NCBI GenBank assembly: GCA_030591125.1
Contig: JAUVBP010000027.1
Coordinates: 1-10,451 of the forward strand
Source of the DNA: Candidatus Woesearchaeota archaeon
Lineage (GTDB): Archaea; Nanobdellota; Nanobdellia; Woesearchaeales; UBA11576
Length of the DNA: 10,451 nt
Direction: 5' to 3'
The notes beneath the pieces are model-generated. The model made no database searches. It had not been told where the DNA came from and was given only the letters and a program-made list of their open reading frames with translations. Shown piece after piece: positions 2,242 through 9,102 of the stretch. Numbering within the stretch: the first letter of the stretch is position 1; each line of letters opens with the position of its first letter. The translations under genes were made by a program, and so were the position numbers.

Positions 2242-3983
2242 GTCCGTACACCCTCTTCAATCTCCAGGAGCGACTCTATGCCTCTTCTGAACAAGGAATA
2301 CTGCTTGACATCTGTGGAATCGATGGTACCGACATATTCATCCTGAAGCCTGTTCGCAGAATGCAACGCGTTACGCAGATACGCACGTCTTATCTTCCTG
2401 TTGAGTGTCGATTCGTATGATGCACAGAAATAAGACACTGTCCTTATCAGGTCTGCGTTGAGTTTCCTGAACTTGAACTCATCGACAGGTGGAATCGGTA
2501 CAGATCCAAAAGAGCTCATCTGACCATGATATACTTCAATCATGCTCTCACGGGCAAGGTCTCCTACAGCATCGTTCTTGAAATAGCACCCTATCTCCAA
2601 AAGTTTCGACAAGTCATCCTCTGGCCGTACAGCACCCTTGAGCTGGAAGTCTATCGCAGTTATCCTCCCCTCAGGACTTATGTTCCAGTTCTTGCCATGC
2701 GCATCCTTGTCAAATACAGCAGGTGAATCCCAGATAGCATCTATAGGAGTCTTGCAGGCATCAAGAAGCATAGAGAATGCAGGATCATAATCTCCTGATG
2801 GTCTCCCTTCGGCCGCCAGCATCGCCTTGGCTTCGTCGAGCCTCTGCCTGAAATGCAACCTCTCCTCCCTCGGCTCTGCATCATTACGCATCATGCTGTG
2901 GATGGCTGCCAGAAACCTCACTGCAGATTCCAGAGCACACATGTCTTTTGTGTCCTCTACGTGCTCAAGTAATGTCCTTCCACGCTCATATAATGATACC
3001 AAAGAATACTTGCCATTCTTTGTAGTGCTTATGCTCCTTGCTATCGCAAAATTATCATATATGCCTTCTGAAGCGATCCAGCTTCCAAGGACCTCGTGAG
3101 CCTCATGCGTAGTCCTTAGTTCATCCTCAAGAAGCTGCCGGTCATCAGATACCTTTATCACAAATACATTCTCCAATACATCAGACTCATTGAGCTTATA
3201 GACCTCTGCATCACCGATCTGCTCCAGTGAGATGTCCCCTCTCTCTTTGGCCTCTGCACGCACCAGCTTGAGCACCCTCTTCCACTGGTCCATCGCAATA
3301 TCCTTCTTTCCCATGGACTCCAAGGCCCGCCCGTATAATATGTTCATGTCTATATCCTTCGGCAGATGACCTAACGCTTCCTGCCAGTACCGCATCGCGT
3401 TGTCGTAGAAACCATCGTATTGCCACCTCAATGCGAACTGGATCGCGAGCTTGTATGGCTCCTCTTTCCTGTGCTGCATACGATGGACAGATTCTGCCAA
3501 GCTAAGTCCTGCCCTGTGGAATATGCCCGTATCAAACGGCTCCTGCATAATCGCGATCACCTCTTCGTACTTGTCGAATGCAGACTCTATCTTTCCCTCA
3601 AGAAGGTCAAGTTCAGCCACACTCTTCAGATATTCCCCTTCGATATAGATATCCTTCAACTTCGCTTCCAACCTACGATGCCTCGGCACATCCGCTGCCT
3701 TTGATGGTCCGAAGAAACCTGCCAGCCCGACACGGACAATCTTAGGAAAATCCTTGACAGGATGCCTGAAGTAGCTGGCCAATGAGACTAAAGATCGGGT
3801 AATGCCTGCACCTGCCAGGGTACCATAACCTAAAACAAATGCGTTTGTCTGGATGGACTCAATAGCAAAAGAATCAAGTTCCAGTGCACCCATCAATGCG
3901 CCGCCTACGACAGCGCCTGCTAGAGTGACAACTCCTTTGTTGTTCTTCAGGAATCTACGCCCCCTGCTAATATCCCCACCCAT
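2238..3983 (-). CDS. Membrane-anchored TPR protein with an APH/choline-kinase-like phosphotransferase domain
   Basis: A 581-residue protein. Residues 17-34 and 46-70 are Gly/Ala-rich hydrophobic segments that probably form a membrane hairpin. Residues 104-245 are helical repeats of TPR type (LLEGKIESAFDKYEEVIAIM; GFYDNAMRYWQEALGHLPKD). Residues 255-480 look like a kinase fold of the aminoglycoside/choline phosphotransferase group. They include a VFVIKV strand with candidate ATP-binding Lys277, a Glu-rich helix after it (E286, E288), a catalytic loop D427-A-H-G-K-N432 with the D-x4-N spacing of APH enzymes (the usual preceding His is Asp425), and I-D445-F as the metal-binding Asp. The substrate is unknown; it could phosphorylate a small molecule or a protein bound by the TPRs. 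The start ATG has a TATA box 28 bp upstream and no ribosome-binding site. The 75-residue gene is coupled downstream. The kinase assignment comes from motifs only. Confidence 0.75.
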   Translation of the reverse strand: MGGDISRGRRFLKNNKGVVTLAGAVVGGALMGALELDSFAIESIQTNAFVLGYGTLAGAGITRSLVSLASYFRHPVKDFPKIVRVGLAGFFGPSKAADVPRHRRLEAKLKDIYIEGEYLKSVAELDLLEGKIESAFDKYEEVIAIMQEPFDTGIFHRAGLSLAESVHRMQHRKEEPYKLAIQFALRWQYDGFYDNAMRYWQEALGHLPKDIDMNILYGRALESMGKKDIAMDQWKRVLKLVRAEAKERGDISLEQIGDAEVYKLNESDVLENVFVIKVSDDRQLLEDELRTTHEAHEVLGSWIASEGIYDNFAIARSISTTKNGKYSLVSLYERGRTLLEHVEDTKDMCALESAVRFLAAIHSMMRNDAEPREERLHFRQRLDEAKAMLAAEGRPSGDYDPAFSMLLDACKTPIDAIWDSPAVFDKDAHGKNWNISPEGRITAIDFQLKGAVRPEDDLSKLLEIGCYFKNDAVGDLARESMIEVYHGQMSSFGSVPIPPVDEFKFRKLNADLIRTVSYFCASYESTLNRKIRRAYLRNALHSANRLQDEYVGTIDSTDVKQYSLFRRGIESLLEIEEGVRT

Positions 3984-4006
3984 TAGTAGTCAATAAAGTG
4001 TCCACA

Positions 4007-4015
4007 TTATTTAAA
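4007..4015 (-). promoter_or_regulatory. TATA box of the TPR-kinase gene
   Basis: TTTAAATAA on the minus strand, centred 28 bp from the ATG at 3983. It implies a leaderless or almost leaderless mRNA. Confidence 0.6.
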
Positions 4016-4051
4016 ATTTACCTTAATCTGATATGTCAGACCCCAGAAAAC

Positions 4052-4059
4052 CTTAAATA
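4052..4059 (+). promoter_or_regulatory. TATA box of the coiled-coil gene
   Basis: CTTAAATA centred about 26 bp before the ATG at 4082. It argues for the start at 4082 rather than the in-frame ATG at 3998, which would lie far upstream of the promoter. Confidence 0.6.
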
Positions 4060-4081
4060 CACAACACGAGACCTGCTTTAC

Positions 4082-4381
4082 ATGATAAAAAACCTGCTCG
4101 GCAAGAAGGAGAAGACAAAGAAGCACGGATCTAAAGTACCTATGAAAGAAGAGTCTGCAAAGACCGTCTCGGCACAAAGGTTCAATGACATGATAGGATA
4201 TTATACCGATGAGCTCAAGTCAAGGCTGAAAGAGATCCATAGGCTCAAAGAAGATAATGAGATGCTGATCAAGACATCCCTCAAGAGTTCTGCGCGTTCT
4301 GATGAATTCAGGGAGCACGTAAGTAAACTGCAGGAAGAAGTGCGCAAACTGCATGAACGCGTACAAGAGAATAAGAAGTAA
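4082..4381 (+). CDS. Small coiled-coil protein of unknown function
   Basis: A 99-residue highly charged protein with no recognised family. Residues 1-25 are basic (KNLLGKKEKTKKHGSK). Residues 38-95 show heptad-like patterning typical of a coiled coil (LKSRLKEIHRLKEDNEML; later VSKLQEEVRKLHERVQ). There are no membrane segments or cysteines. It probably oligomerises or acts as a scaffold, which is inferred from composition. The reading frame also contains an ATG at 3998, but the TATA box at 4052-4059 would leave that start outside the transcript. It is divergent from the TPR-kinase gene with about 100 bp between starts, so the two could share control. The structured element at 4388-4570 begins seven bases after its stop codon. 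Confidence 0.65.
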   Translation: MIKNLLGKKEKTKKHGSKVPMKEESAKTVSAQRFNDMIGYYTDELKSRLKEIHRLKEDNEMLIKTSLKSSARSDEFREHVSKLQEEVRKLHERVQENKK

Positions 4382-4387
4382 AGTATC

Positions 4388-4570
4388 TGTTTAGCTTAAC
4401 CCTATCAGCACTGCCACGCTGCTAGAGCGCATAGGGGCATGCTAACCAAATATCAGCAACACCGTGCTTGCGCAACATACACATATCCTGTCGAAGTGCA
4501 GCCACAAAACCGCCATCATCCCTAAGGACACGCAAAGAGCGGTGGCGGTGCTGACCATAATAGCTAAACA
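4388..4570. other. Gene-free structured element: nested inverted repeats, candidate ncRNA or MITE-like element
   Basis: The ends are perfect 9-bp inverted repeats, TGTTTAGCT (4388-4396) and AGCTAAACA (4562-4570). Inside them TCAGCACTGCCAC (4405-4417) pairs with GTGGCGGTGCTGA (4542-4554) over 13 bp. The only non-Watson-Crick position is a G-U wobble if the plus strand is transcribed. Competing local stems exist: 4391-4395 with 4441-4445 plus CCCTAT (4400-4405) with ATAGGG (4431-4436), and ACCGCCA (4509-4515) with TGGCGGT (4543-4549). TATCAGCA is directly repeated at 4403 and 4451. It matches no RNA family I know: no RNase P, SRP, 5S or tRNA motifs are visible. No target-site duplication is evident, so a MITE is possible but unproven. 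The block looks more GC-rich than the spacers around it. Confidence 0.5.
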
Positions 4571-4588
4571 AATAAGAAATTAAAAAAT
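4571..4588 (-). terminator. T-rich terminator after the four-helix membrane protein gene
   Basis: Immediately after the stop codon of the minus-strand gene the transcript would read ATTTTTTAATTTCTTATTT. Such a T-rich tract is typical of archaeal transcription termination. Confidence 0.4.
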
Positions 4589-5053
4589 TCATATGCTGCT
4601 CTTCAACATCTTTTCTGTCGCATGTATCGCAAAGCCTATCGCAAATACGTTCAATGCTATCAATGCAGTATAGAACACCATGTAACCGAAGCTCGTATTG
4701 TGTATCAGGAATATTGCCACGAGGTCTCCCAGGATAGCACCTCCTGAATACAACAGGAGAGGTCTGGTCCTGAAGTAATAATGGAATTCCCTGTCCTCCT
4801 TTGTCCTGCCACCCAAGAATACTATGTTAGCGATGACTGTGAACGCAGCCACCATTATGGCTATTACAGAGAACACATCACGCAGTATCAATGACGCATC
4901 AGGCACGTCCTGGAGCAGATGGAGGTTGACTGATGCAAAGACCTCAACCACTATCACGACTATGAGTGCCAATAAGTAAGTCAGCAGAAGTTTAGGTACA
5001 CCTACTTTATTCACATGCTTCCGCATCAGCTCCCGTTCTCTTTTCAGGATCAT
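4589..5053 (-). CDS. Four-helix membrane protein of unknown function
   Basis: A 154-residue integral membrane protein with a basic N-terminus (KRERELMRKH). Four hydrophobic segments lie near residues 21-42, 60-80, 98-117 and 121-145. A charged cytoplasmic-type loop (GRTKEDREFHYYFRTR) lies between the second and third. No catalytic or transport motif is evident and I do not recognise the family. It follows the gene at 5057-5545 with only three bases between that gene's stop and this ATG, so the two form an operon and may work together in the membrane. An alternative in-frame ATG at 5026 is preceded by GGGAG at short spacing and would remove nine residues. Confidence 0.7.
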   Translation of the reverse strand: MILKRERELMRKHVNKVGVPKLLLTYLLALIVVIVVEVFASVNLHLLQDVPDASLILRDVFSVIAIMVAAFTVIANIVFLGGRTKEDREFHYYFRTRPLLLYSGGAILGDLVAIFLIHNTSFGYMVFYTALIALNVFAIGFAIHATEKMLKSSI

Positions 5054-5056
5054 CTT

Positions 5057-5545
5057 TTACTTCCGGGTCCCGACAATGAACCCCTGGGTCGTGTGGGGAA
5101 GCCCTGTATAACTCACATGGGTCATGTATATTTTCTTACGCACAGTCCCGCCATCAGTAGCGCATTCAAACGTATATATCTCTTTTGTATTAGGCTTCAC
5201 TGTATGTGACTGCTCACCTTCGCAGCCTTCAAGCTCAAGAATTATGTTCAGGTCCTCTTTCATATGGTTGCTGACATCTAGGCTTATCGTAGCACCTGTA
5301 ATGACAACATTATTGCAGTCGATGCCCGGCATCAGCGCGCAGTCTTCCTTGACAATGACTTCCATGTTGAAGTAACCATATACCAAAGAAAGTATGACAA
5401 GGACGACCAATATCAGTGTCAGGGTCCGGGTAGATGGGAGGTAGGATCTCTGAGGCTTGTTGAGGATATCATCTATCTCATGTATCCTCTGCTCCTTCTC
5501 TTCCCTCTTTTTTTTCCTTAGAGCTACATTCGATTCCAGGCTCAT
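5057..5545 (-). CDS. Single-pass membrane protein with a cysteine-containing extracellular domain
   Basis: A 162-residue protein. The N-terminus (residues 1-40) is highly charged and likely cytoplasmic (ALRKKKREEKEQR). Residues 41-60 form one membrane helix. Residues 61-162 are beta-rich with four cysteines (C69, C77, C108, C128), enough for two disulfides in an exported domain. The stretch around residues 86-130 resembles an Ig-like beta-sandwich, which is only a pattern impression. The family is unrecognised. The frame is open back to an ATG at 5608, but a TATA box at 5566-5577 lies 26 bp before the ATG at 5545. I therefore start at 5545, giving a leaderless mRNA. It is the first gene of an operon with the four-helix protein and is divergent from the thermosome gene. 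Confidence 0.7.
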   Translation of the reverse strand: MSLESNVALRKKKREEKEQRIHEIDDILNKPQRSYLPSTRTLTLILVVLVILSLVYGYFNMEVIVKEDCALMPGIDCNNVVITGATISLDVSNHMKEDLNIILELEGCEGEQSHTVKPNTKEIYTFECATDGGTVRKKIYMTHVSYTGLPHTTQGFIVGTRK

Positions 5546-5565
5546 GGGGGGTGTATGGTTATAAT

Positions 5566-5577
5566 GGTTTAAAAAGG
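5566..5577 (-). promoter_or_regulatory. TATA box of the membrane protein operon
   Basis: CCTTTTTAAACC on the minus strand, centred about 26 bp from the ATG at 5545. It supports a leaderless transcript and excludes the upstream in-frame ATG at 5608. Confidence 0.6.
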
Positions 5578-5612
5578 TTATGTGTGGAGCAGTCCTGAGC
5601 AGAACCATAACC

Positions 5613-5620
5613 TTTATATA
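5613..5620 (+). promoter_or_regulatory. TATA box of the thermosome gene
   Basis: TTTATATA, an excellent archaeal TATA box. Transcription should start near 5642, leaving a leader of roughly 88 nt, unlike most other transcripts in the window. Confidence 0.7.
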
Positions 5621-5646
5621 CTACCAGTAAGAGACTTTTAAGTCAT

Positions 5647-5698
5647 AAAAATCCTAAGGATTTTTAGGACACCAAAAACCAGAAAGCAAACTTTCTGG
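5647..5698 (+). promoter_or_regulatory. Two perfect hairpins in the thermosome 5' leader
   Basis: The first stem is AAAAATCC (5647-5654) with GGATTTTT (5658-5665), loop TAA. A competing stem pairs CCTAA (5653-5657) with TTAGG (5664-5668). The second stem is CCAGAAAG (5679-5686) with CTTTCTGG (5691-5698), loop CAAA, followed by CTTTT. Both should form in the mRNA leader, upstream of a weak ribosome-binding site (GGGGG at 5717-5721). They could act in thermal or attenuation control, or as stabilisers. Confidence 0.55.
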
Positions 5699-5729
5699 CT
5701 TTTGCGTGTTAAATACGGGGGTTTTCTAA

Positions 5730-7382
5730 ATGTCAAAAGACGTACAACCAATATTCATAATGCCTGAAGGCACACAGAGGAGCACAGGAAGGAATGCTCA
5801 AAGGAACAACATAATGGCTGCAAAGTTAGTAGCTGAGACTGTCAGGACCACACTGGGCCCTAAAGGCATGGACAAGATGCTTGTGGATTCTTTGAATGAT
5901 GTGACTATCACTAATGATGGGGTGACCATCTTAGAAGAGATGCAGATAGAGCACCCTGCAGCAAAGATGATCGTTGAAGTCGCAAAGACCCAGGAAGATG
6001 AGGTAGGTGATGGTACTACAACTGCTGTGGTGTTAGCTGGAGAGTTATTGAAGAAAGCTGAGGCTCTATTGGAGCAGGAGATACACCCTACTGTGATCAT
6101 CAAAGGTTACAGGATAGCTGCAGAGAAGGCACAGGACATCCTGACAAGTGTCGCAGAACCTGTTTCTGTGAAGGATACGCTTACATTGAAGAAGATAGCC
6201 ATGACTGCAATGACAGGAAAAGGCGCAGAGTCATTCAAGGAACTATTGGCAGACCTTACTGTCACCGCAGTGAAGAATGTATCTGAAGAGTCAGATGGCA
6301 AGTTCTACATCGACAAGGAAGACATCAAGATAGAGAAGAAGGTCGGCGGCAGTGTTGATGATACCAAGTTGGTCAAGGGGATAGTGTTGGACAAGGAGAA
6401 AGTACATGCTGCAATGCCACGGCAGGTTGTTGGTGGTAAGGTTGCACTCATTGATTCTGCTATCGAGGTCAAGAGCACAGAGATGGACGCGAAGATACAG
6501 ATCACGGACCCTAACCAACTCCAGAGCTTCCTTGACATGGAAGAGAAGATGCTCAAAGACATGGTCGCAAGCATTGTCAATGCAGGTGCGAGCGTAGTGT
6601 TCTGCCAGAAAGGCATCGATGACCTTGCACAGCATTATCTTGCTAAGCATGGGATATATGCTTCTCGAAGGGTGAAGAAGTCAGACATGGAGAAGCTTGC
6701 AAAAGCTACCGGTGCTTCTGTCGTGACGAAGATTGATGATCTGACTACTAAGGATCTCGGCAATGCAGGCATAGTTGAGGAAGTGAAAGTCGGTGATGAG
6801 GAGATGACCTTTGTGAGCGAGTGCAAGAATCCGAAGGCAGTCACGATATTGGTTAAAGGTGCTACTGAGCATGTGATTGATGAGGTCAAACGTGCGATGG
6901 AAGATGCTATCGGCGATGTTGCCTCTGCTTTACAAGGCGGGCAGGTTGTTGCAGGTGCAGCATCTGTAGAAATGGAAGTGTCTAAGCAGTTAAGGAAGTT
7001 TTCGGATTCTCTGTCTGGACGGGAACAGCTTGCAGTGATGGCTTTTGCAGATACCATGGAAGTGATACCACGGACTTTGGCAGAGAACGCTGGTCTGGAT
7101 CCTATAGACGTTGTGACTGAGCTGAAAGCAGCACATGACAAGAACAGGAAATGGGCAGGGATTAATGTGTTTTCAGGTAAGGTAATGGACGCATGGCAGG
7201 CAGGCGTGATTGAGCCACTGAAGATAAAGACACAGGCTGTGAGTTCAGCATCAGAAGTCGCAATCATGATACTCAGGATAGATGACGTGATTGCCGGCGG
7301 TCCAGGCGAAGGCGGCGGAATGCCACCAGGCGGTATGCCCCCAGGAGGAATGCCTCCAGGCATGGATGGCATGGGGATGTGA
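5730..7382 (+). CDS. thsA: Thermosome subunit (group II chaperonin)
   Basis: A 550-residue archaeal chaperonin subunit of normal length. It builds an ATP-driven double ring with built-in lid that folds proteins in the cytoplasm. Visible family motifs are [12 protein letters not shown] (residues 40-51), TNDGVTIL (61-68), the nucleotide-binding GDGTTT (93-98), and the late Asp of the MEDA stretch (D392) expected for hydrolysis. The C-terminus ends in Gly/Met/Pro repeats (GGMPP three times, then GMDGMGM), the flexible tail that projects into the cavity. It is transcribed alone: its promoter is at 5613-5620, a T-rich terminator follows, and the upstream neighbour is divergent. The leader holds two hairpins, which may adjust expression to stress. 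Whether other subunit genes exist elsewhere is unknown, so the symbol follows common usage only. Confidence 0.97.
7318..7376 (+). repeat. GGMPP-coding repeat in the thermosome tail
   Basis: About four near-identical 15-bp units encode the Gly-Gly-Met-Pro-Pro tail. Codons differ between units (ccaccaggcggt, cccccaggagga, cctccaggc), so the amino acid pattern is kept despite synonymous change. Confidence 0.7.
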
Positions 7383-7383
7383 T

Positions 7384-7410
7384 TATTTAATTATTTTATT
7401 TTTCTTAATT
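7384..7410 (+). terminator. T-rich terminator after the thermosome gene
   Basis: The stretch after the TGA is almost pure A/T with several T runs (TTATTTTATTTTTCTT). This is the usual form of an archaeal intrinsic terminator. Confidence 0.55.
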
Positions 7411-7452
7411 CTTAGGGCTTACATTACCTAATTGAAATCCGCACCGCGGATT
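7408..7452. repeat. Flanking repeat, copy 1 (thermosome side of the methyltransferase gene)
   Basis: ATTCTTAGGGCTTACA (7408-7423) is identical to 8322-8337. Exactly 12 bp later AATCCGCACCGCGGA (7436-7450) matches 13 of 15 positions of 8350-8364. In this copy AATCCGC (7436-7442) and GCGGATT (7446-7452) form a perfect 7-bp stem with loop ACC. A second hairpin, TTCTTA/TAAGAA, follows at 7451-7466. The 12-bp spacers of the two copies differ. Confidence 0.7.
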
Positions 7453-7500
7453 CTTAGTATTAAGAAGTTTAGTTCGCTTTTTCAAGCATATTCTGGGTTA

Positions 7501-7534
7501 AACTAACTAATACTTCGTTTAATAGTTGTTAGTT
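7501..7534. repeat. 7-bp inverted repeat downstream of the methyltransferase gene
   Basis: AACTAAC (7501-7507) and GTTAGTT (7528-7534) enclose 20 bp. It lies just past the methyltransferase stop codon on the minus strand and could help end or protect that transcript. Confidence 0.4.
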
Positions 7535-7553
7535 ACAATTTAGAATTATTTTG

Positions 7554-8183
7554 CTATTGTTGAAGTAGCACTAAATTATGTGTTCCATAAGCGCAATTTT
7601 CGACATGTACTTGATTAAAAGATTGTTTCCCAATTTTTTCAAATTCTTCTGCATCAAATAGGTTGTAACTGTGTCCGATTCTATTTGAGATTCTGCCACT
7701 CATACCTTTGATTAATTGAATTAGATTTAATTGTCTACTTCCATTAATTTGTGGTAATGCATAATCCCAAAGACTTGGTTTTGGATGAGCAACAATAGCT
7801 AACCCTTGACCAGTATGTTCTGCCAACATGTCAAGACTTACATTTAAATCGGGATGATATAAACTTCTACAAGCTATTGTAATATCAGAATCATAAGTAT
7901 TTGGTATTTCTTTATAAAAATCTGTTTGGATAAATTCAACATTTTCTCCAGCTAATTTTTTAGCTTTCTCAATAGCCTTTTCTGAAAAATCAAGTGCTCT
8001 AATTTTTGATGTTGTTGGCAATCTTCTAGTTAATTGTCCAGAACCACTGCCTAATTCATCAATTGAATCATGCTTTGAATCTTGAACTACTCTTACAACA
8101 TCTGAGTATAATTTTTTATCTACTTCACATAGAAATCTATCATAAAGAAAGCCCATACTAATATTCCAACCTATTTTACTCAT
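7554..8183 (-). CDS. Class I SAM-dependent methyltransferase, AT-rich and probably acquired
   Basis: A 209-residue Rossmann-fold methyltransferase. Motif I is IDELGSGSG (41-49), the SAM-binding Gly loop, with Glu43 where Asp or Glu is usual. Asp65 at the end of the next strand (RALDFSEKAIEKAKK) should bind the ribose. Residues 82-89 (VEFIQTDF) carry the adenine-contacting acidic position, and motif IV is around 100-107 (DITIACRS). The substrate cannot be read from the sequence. Base use differs sharply from its neighbours: a sample of 60 bases at 7921-7980 has 18 G/C, against 27 of 60 in the thermosome at 6241-6300, and codons favour A/T ends. The gene is bracketed by two copies of a composite repeat (7408-7450 and 8322-8364). 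These facts suggest horizontal acquisition as a single-gene unit. A TATA-like box 25 bp before the ATG suggests a leaderless mRNA. Confidence 0.85.
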   Translation of the reverse strand: MSKIGWNISMGFLYDRFLCEVDKKLYSDVVRVVQDSKHDSIDELGSGSGQLTRRLPTTSKIRALDFSEKAIEKAKKLAGENVEFIQTDFYKEIPNTYDSDITIACRSLYHPDLNVSLDMLAEHTGQGLAIVAHPKPSLWDYALPQINGSRQLNLIQLIKGMSGRISNRIGHSYNLFDAEEFEKIGKQSFNQVHVENCAYGTHNLVLLQQ

Positions 8184-8203
8184 AATTTTTGGTACTAATC
8201 AAG

Positions 8204-8213
8204 TATTAATAAA
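8204..8213 (-). promoter_or_regulatory. TATA-like box of the methyltransferase gene
   Basis: TTTATTAATA on the minus strand, centred about 25 bp before the ATG at 8183. The region is AT-rich, so the match is less telling than elsewhere. Confidence 0.4.
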
Positions 8214-8321
8214 GTTATGCAAAATAATTCTAAACTCTGCGGTTTCTCTTCGGGACGTTGCACTAAATTCAGCCTTTTGGGGAATATAACAGTGATTAAG
8301 AGACTTCGTCTTGCAAGCCTC
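8214..8321. other. Gene-free spacer between methyltransferase and M50 protease genes
   Basis: The whole spacer 8184-8478 holds no recognisable gene. This part contains only small features: a hairpin AGAC-TTC-GTCT (8301-8311) and the palindrome CTTGCAAG (8310-8317). A 50-codon open frame at 8217-8369 has no ribosome-binding site and runs through the flanking repeat, so I do not call it. Confidence 0.4.
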
Positions 8322-8369
8322 ATTCTTAGGGCTTACACACTCAAGTCACAATCCGCATCACGGACTTGA
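8322..8369. repeat. Flanking repeat, copy 2 (M50 side of the methyltransferase gene)
   Basis: ATTCTTAGGGCTTACA (8322-8337) is identical to copy 1. After a different 12-bp spacer, AATCCGCATCACGGA (8350-8364) differs from copy 1 at two positions. This copy keeps stem-forming ability through other bases: TCAAGTC (8341-8347) pairs with GACTTGA (8363-8369). Both copies are in the same orientation, 914 bp apart. Confidence 0.7.
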
Positions 8370-8450
8370 ATTCTTCTGAAATCCCCTATATCTGCTCTAA
8401 ACCATACACTGCTCGCACAAGACATTTATGCAGGGTTTTACCAAAACATT

Positions 8451-8458
8451 CAAATATA
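8451..8458 (+). promoter_or_regulatory. TATA box of the M50 protease operon
   Basis: CAAATATA centred about 24 bp before the ATG at 8479. There is no ribosome-binding site, consistent with a leaderless mRNA. Confidence 0.55.
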
Positions 8459-8478
8459 CTGCACCCTAATCAATCCCT

Positions 8479-9102
8479 ATGAGGCACATCAACCCGCATT
8501 TCCATAAAGGGATAAGGAGTTCTCGTAAGGAGATCATCGATCTGGCTAAGTCCTGGATAGTGATAGGTATCGCTTTTGCTATCGCCTTGAATGGGGCGAG
8601 TCTGAGTCCTACTTTCTTTATTGCATTGTTCATATCGCTGATCACTGTGGGTACAGGATTCCTGTTGCATGAGCTTGCGCACAAGTTCGTTGCGCAGAGA
8701 TATGGATGCTTTGCAGAGTTCAGGAGCTTTGACAAGATGCTGGTATTCGCATTGATAATATCTTTCTTCGGATTCATATTCGCAGCACCTGGAGCGGTGA
8801 TGATAAGAGGCCACATAACAAAAGCACAGAGAGGATTGATATCTGCAGCAGGGCCTTTGACAAATATCATATTATCACTAGGATTCTTACTTCTTGCATC
8901 AAGCAGCGGAGGGATACTGCAAGCGATAGGAGCTTACGGGTTCATAATCAACGCATGGCTTGCGCTGTTCAACATGATACCTTTCGCGATGTTCGACGGC
9001 AAGAAAGTGATGGACTGGAGCAAACCAGTCTATGCAGGTATGGCAGTGGCATCATTATCACTGATAGTGATACATAACCTGATAATAACAGGGGTTTTAT
9101 GA
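8479..9102 (+). CDS. M50-family membrane metalloprotease (site-2-protease-like)
   Basis: A 207-residue polytopic membrane protein with about six hydrophobic segments (near 24-42, 47-66, 86-106, 122-142, 147-165, 185-205). The zinc-binding H64-E-L-A-H68 motif lies at the end of the second segment. AGPLTN (124-129) is the conserved GPxxN-type element. N165-M-I-P-F-A-M-F-D173-G supplies the third zinc ligand, as in the NxxPxxxxDG motif of site-2 proteases. These enzymes cleave substrates within the membrane, often in regulated proteolysis. This is a minimal form without PDZ or CBS domains, and the substrate is unknown. Its stop codon overlaps the ATG of the next gene (ATGA, 9099-9102), so the two are co-transcribed. 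Confidence 0.88.
   Translation: MRHINPHFHKGIRSSRKEIIDLAKSWIVIGIAFAIALNGASLSPTFFIALFISLITVGTGFLLHELAHKFVAQRYGCFAEFRSFDKMLVFALIISFFGFIFAAPGAVMIRGHITKAQRGLISAAGPLTNIILSLGFLLLASSSGGILQAIGAYGFIINAWLALFNMIPFAMFDGKKVMDWSKPVYAGMAVASLSLIVIHNLIITGVL

Follow-up and report, generated by a model that had tools for sequence, protein, structure and literature searches.

The window, the whole stretch of 10,451 nucleotides that was analysed, is a complete contig (C137) of a draft Woesearchaeota genome (1.31 Mb in 226 contigs, 67% complete). Its proteins include a thermosome, a PhoU-domain protein, an AsnC-type protein, a dUTPase and an M50 peptidase, which is archaeal-type content, and neither the whole window nor its right part alone had another match in the same genome. 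Between the thermosome and M50 peptidase genes lies a methyltransferase gene on the opposite strand, surrounded by two sets of repeats, the features being, from left to right:

5730-7382, plus strand: thermosome (TCP-1/cpn60) gene, left neighbour (E = 1.8e-183)
7408-7423, plus strand: direct repeat copy 1, box A (ATTCTTAGGGCTTACA), 16/16 identical to 8322-8337
7424-7435, plus strand: direct repeat copy 1, unmatched spacer (3/12)
7436-7450, plus strand: direct repeat copy 1, box B (13/15), most of the dyad 7436-7452 (fold)
7451-7466, plus strand: small hairpin TTCTTA-gtat-TAAGAA adjoining copy 1, absent at copy 2 (sequence; fold)
7539-7554, plus strand: inverted repeat, left arm (TTTAGAATTATTTTGC), at the methyltransferase 3' end (repeat search; shuffles)
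7554-8183, minus strand: intact gene for a class I SAM-dependent methyltransferase of 209 aa, 31% GC (Methyltransf_25, E = 2.6e-7)
8219-8234, minus strand: inverted repeat, right arm, on the upstream side of the methyltransferase gene (repeat search; shuffles; composition)
8235-8321, no strand: host-like DNA, 87 bp, 46% GC, between the inverted repeat and copy 2 (composition)
8322-8337, plus strand: direct repeat copy 2, box A (16/16)
8338-8349, plus strand: direct repeat copy 2, unmatched spacer (3/12), containing the left arm of the dyad 8341-8369
8350-8364, plus strand: direct repeat copy 2, box B (13/15)
8479-9102, plus strand: M50-family peptidase gene, right neighbour (E = 8.7e-9)

Three Pfam methyltransferase models exceeded the cut-off with the encoded protein, and the glycines G45, G47 and G49 of its glycine-rich motif are invariant across five sequences. 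Beyond this, the hits in libraries of families and structures were generic or weak (a Mad2 model at 27 bits). The family looks small: a word-based search of 5.8 billion proteins (E ≤ 1e-3) returned five matches, the window's own included, amongst them P0002 and P0003 (67% and 73% identical, on contigs of 2194 and 1368 bases). Relatives occur at one locus in the genome collection, labelled Nanoarchaeota archaeon, and at none in the viral collection, and a protein search of phages gave no match. With its own genome counted each time, the gene is present in 1 of 10 genomes of the family, 4 of 352 of the order (E ≤ 1e-12) and 3 of 371 of the phylum; it was not found in the three other same-genus and six other same-family genomes (drafts, 80–96% complete). 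A single-sequence query at E ≤ 1e-3 matched 13 of 59 genomes, own included; the other 12, with a best E of 2.7e-6, were discounted as generic methyltransferases.

An earlier note on this DNA had observed that the base composition of the gene departs from that of its neighbours, and the figures bear this out: 31% GC compared with 48% in the thermosome gene and 45% in the M50 gene, a difference of 14–17 points. No window of the same genome was as AT-rich, either among 141 windows (lowest GC 38.6%), which are not fully independent because some loci overlap (e.g. L008/L068, L018/L019 and L004/L060), or among 329 in a second sample (lowest GC 34.9%). Because a patchy distribution coincides with a GC content unequalled in both samples, recent acquisition is well supported. 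The earlier note would have given up its reading had relatives kept the gene in place with the same composition, which did not prove to be so, as the gene was not found in the nine family relatives searched.

The position behind the thermosome gene is itself variable. In no relative did the thermosome adjoin the M50 gene, in stretches of at most ~1.5 kb on either side (shorter where contigs end), and two of the three same-genus relatives carry a foreign-looking module there, the third (G002) being unreadable at this spot as its contig stops 97 bases past the thermosome stop. In G001, two AT-rich genes (37% and 42% GC, neighbours 53–57%) directly follow the thermosome (L096:2078-3971), and in G003, contig C113 starts with the thermosome tail and continues with the same gene pair (L163:274-2078), the first gene having 38% GC vs. 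52% over positions 3000–6000 of that contig. The paired proteins are 45% and 74% identical between the two genomes, the second protein of the G001 module is a radical SAM protein, and the G001 pair, the only one scanned, resembles the candidate defence models PDC-M41A/B and M30A/B. As G001 and G003 may have inherited the module from a common ancestor, the two genomes represent one or two events. Neither module has a repeat pair outside its ends, which favours a variable spot that is independent of the direct repeat; one 15-nt imperfect inverted pair lies just within the module ends in G001 (2138 / 3947). Elsewhere in the family, a 383-residue frame separates the thermosome gene of G007 from the one that follows (L098:3624-4775), and G009, which carries the same genus label, lacks one as long in this position. 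We consider it likely that the methyltransferase gene is a foreign one-gene insertion into a variable spacer.

A perfect 16-bp inverted repeat (16/16; 7539-7554 and 8219-8234), overlooked in the earlier note, closely flanks the gene. One as long was generated by none of 1500 shuffles of 7451-8234, by one of 1500 shuffles of 7451-8321 and by none of 300 flank shuffles. The best estimate of the right composition break is 8234 (8213-8306 within 3 log units), which is the outer end of the right arm and sits 16–109 bp on the gene side of direct repeat copy 2. Because the break falls at 8234 and is followed by 87 bp of host-like DNA, the inverted repeat, rather than the direct repeat, appears to mark the end of the foreign block. 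The left break (7361-7393) is uninformative because the spacer there is AT-rich itself, and 7451-7538, outside the inverted repeat, has 27% GC. No target-site duplication was seen by eye outside the inverted repeat, where the outer flanks differ, and no second copy of the inverted pair was found in the genome, one near match (C156, one mismatch) being single. Across the family, the 16-mer occurs with up to two mismatches at 61 places, vs. 27 for a reversed control; G008 and G004 hold 51 of the 61 (control 19 there), an excess which may reflect their AT-rich composition. Alternatively, the inverted repeat could have a regulatory role, given its AT-richness and the position of its right arm, which by eye directly precedes a TATA-like stretch of the gene. 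Downstream of the gene, 7501-7534 holds an imperfect dyad, AACTAACTAATA ... TAGTTGTTAGTT, which is possibly the methyltransferase terminator.

A counterpart of the inverted repeat at the related methyltransferase genes has little support, being weak at one locus and absent at the other. At L094 (G277), an imperfect inverted pair brackets the gene (6915-6927 / 7641-7653, 92%), and at L095 (G308), the bracketing pair (780-799 / 1607-1626, 85%) contains many runs of A and T. Shuffles equalled the best inverted match close to the gene in 9 of 300 cases at L094 and in 297 of 300 at L095. Exact repeats of at least 11 bp around the gene were found at neither of these two loci, to which the test was confined, the third relative (G251) being cut by a contig end.

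Further out is the direct repeat that the earlier note had described on both sides of the gene, which we confirm at 7408-7450 and 8322-8364, in the same orientation, 914 bp apart and enclosing the methyltransferase gene. Each copy consists of ATTCTTAGGGCTTACA (16/16 identical), a spacer (3/12) and AATCCGCAYCRCGGA (13/15), with 32 of 43 positions identical in total, and identity beyond the copies is close to chance (11/40 upstream, 15/40 downstream). An exact direct repeat of at least 16 bp arose in 0 of 400 shuffles of 7383-8478 and 2 of 400 shuffles of 6800-9000; such a repeat alone is no great rarity within 2.2 kb, but none of 300 segment-wise shuffles matched the ungapped repeat score of 21. 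Two constant boxes flanking an unmatched spacer suggest that something binds or folds there. Dyads made by different bases, also reported earlier, are visible by eye in both copies (AATCCGC/GCGGATT with loop ACC at 7436-7452, TCAAGTC ... GACTTGA at 8341-8369). Folded as single-stranded DNA, copy 1 gives a clear structure (z −3.1 on the plus strand, −2.8 on the minus), whilst the fold of copy 2 is weak, with z only −2.1 and −1.6, respectively.

With up to three mismatches allowed, the direct repeat occurs at two places in the 352 genomes of the order, both in this window; the hunt for further copies in the genome (67% complete), proposed in the earlier note, thus ended with these two sites. Box A alone, at the same tolerance, has 25 places in its own genome including the window's two, vs. 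38 for the reversed control; the best other match (C166, two mismatches) was rejected, as it sits in a stretch that reads as coding (by eye). The bipartite pattern, again with up to three mismatches, has 15 places in the genome and 15 in the control, the window's two being exact and the remaining 13 at 2–3 mismatches. Exact bipartite matches numbered zero in both the viral and the genome collections, and a DNA search against phages and plasmids gave no match. One match with a relaxed spacer in the viral collection lies within a 428-codon open frame and was taken as chance.

From these patterns we infer the limits of the inserted unit, the direction of the transfer and both the age and the role of the direct repeat as follows. 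The stand-alone methyltransferase gene would have been taken recently from an AT-rich relative or a co-resident organism and inserted in the spacer behind the thermosome, where two congeners carry different AT-rich genes. The inserted unit would most likely span roughly 7539-8234, with the perfect 16-bp inverted repeat at its ends, and would resemble a small non-autonomous transposon-like unit with its enzyme supplied elsewhere. The outer direct repeats would probably be a separate structured spacer element, two constant boxes around variable small hairpins, the pair having pre-existed or been duplicated independently of the methyltransferase gene. We favour this combination of an acquired gene, an inverted-repeat unit and separate direct repeats only tentatively, its likelihood as a whole falling somewhat short of an even chance, and insertion as an inverted-repeat unit, taken on its own, is a plausible step about which we are similarly cautious.

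The direct repeat pair could instead belong to the host's own spacers, as 3'-end hairpins of a terminator-like or REP-like type which flank the gene by chance, an alternative that is unlikely, if still worth serious attention. Copy 1 starts 25 bases past the thermosome stop, and other spacers of the genome contain hairpins joined by constant linkers (L135, L004 and window 5645-5705), one linker, ATTTTTAGGAC, resembling ATTCTTAGGGC. The resemblance is without statistical support, however, because ATTYTTAGGRC occurs once in 40 further stretches (217,883 readable bases) vs. three times in the reversed control, and the direct repeat is not dispersed in the genome. Furthermore, the 3' regions of thermosome genes fold mildly at best (z −1.3 to −3.4 in G000, G001, G002, G003, G005 and G009, +0.7 to +1.4 in G004, G006, G007 and G008), and the 100 bases around copy 2 have a fold z of −0.95.

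In the hairpin runs themselves (L135:2047-2150, L004:2825-2965 and window 5645-5705), the stems vary and the linkers are constant. L135 and L004, on different contigs, have modules in common, L004 with extra hairpins inserted. An Rfam search of the window gave a single match, to CopA and below threshold (E 0.76), at the hairpin spacer (5634-5702).

That the direct repeats are recombination sites is doubtful, and so is a one-gene integrated element or cassette of the kind suggested in the earlier note. In such a scheme, a circle with the gene and one repeat would have recombined site-specifically with a chromosomal copy behind the thermosome, so that each end now has one copy, the recombinase acting in trans or since lost. 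The copies share their orientation, the gene between them is foreign-looking, dyads are present at both, and the boxes are far better conserved than the spacer (29/31 vs. 3/12, Fisher p = 1.8e-5, a comparison chosen after seeing the data). Against this, there is no third copy in the 352 genomes and no exact bipartite match in the viral and genome collections, and the two other gene-family members tested are without exact flanking repeats. The composition break also lies inward of copy 2, and the 87 bp of host-like DNA is ill-suited to a repeat-bounded cassette: of the marks of an att-type element, an identical core is present at both ends (16/16), but the foreign DNA does not extend from core to core, with the right break at 8234 (8213-8306) and the core at 8322. 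Most tyrosine recombinases are, moreover, ill-suited to two sites with differing spacers. The nearby tyrosine recombinase that the earlier note had thought worth seeking was not found, PF00589 having no match in this genome (67% complete) whilst the controls were positive in 14 of 14. The core pair of an attC site is RYYYAAC ... GTTRRRY, 40–160 bp apart; strict motifs within 7300-8500 comprise RYYYAAC at 7934 and GTTRRRY at 7497 on the plus strand and one each on the minus strand (7503, 7940), and no strict pair in range occurs on either strand, in agreement with the earlier note, which had found no convincing pair. Of the recombined cassette, then, the foreign-looking single gene and a real repeat pair stand, whilst folded recombination sites find no support.

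It is improbable that both sets of repeats belong to one minimal archaeal single-gene element, with bipartite end sites recognised by structure (constant boxes on both sides of a variable spacer, with hairpins that differ in sequence), an inner inverted repeat around the gene and mobilisation in trans into a turnover spot behind the thermosome. If the direct repeats were recombination sites, the locus would represent a novel type of single-gene mobile unit in little-studied archaea; on present evidence, it clearly exemplifies a lone foreign-looking gene in a spacer with differing genes across related species. Just as improbable is an old gene of the lineage, lost in relatives and drifted in composition: the gene family has other members within the order, and two of three are near the GC content of their own locus (34.6% in 36.9%, 35.2% in 35.6%), but the third has 49.8% in a 44.8% locus, and the window's gene departs from its neighbours and was not found in the nine other family genomes. 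An assembly chimera joining foreign DNA to the contig is more improbable still, for although the genome is a draft of many contigs, host-like sequence lies on both sides of the gene within one contig and a 16-bp exact repeat is shorter than the usual assembly words.

Amongst known systems, integron cassettes invite comparison, including CALINs, which by definition are without the integrase IntI. The locus, with one gene between two similar foldable direct sites in an archaeal host, is like the archaeal integrons reported by Ghaly et al. 2022 (PMC9668308), which are said there to have attC sites with the bacterial fold and tyrosine-recombinase integrases, and to be mostly clusters without an integrase. 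It differs in having no strict attC pair in 7300-8500, no tyrosine recombinase found in the 67%-complete genome, one gene and only two sites found. In Xer-dependent dif modules (pdif cassettes), a single gene is flanked by conserved boxes, which enclose a variable spacer of ~6; the locus likewise has conserved boxes, a variable spacer and a single flanked gene, but its spacer is 12 bp, its repeats are in direct orientation and the search for a tyrosine recombinase found none. Small non-autonomous transposon units (MITE-like with a passenger gene) have inverted repeats close round a gene and no transposase inside. The locus is unlike these in being without a visible target duplication, a second copy of the pair or an assigned transposase, and like them in its perfect terminal inverted repeat (16/16), close around one gene with no transposase inside. 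Finally, gene-turnover spots are variable spacers filled by differing foreign genes in relatives, and the locus resembles them in that, of the same-genus relatives (two of three being readable here), two congeners carry another AT-rich module behind the thermosome.
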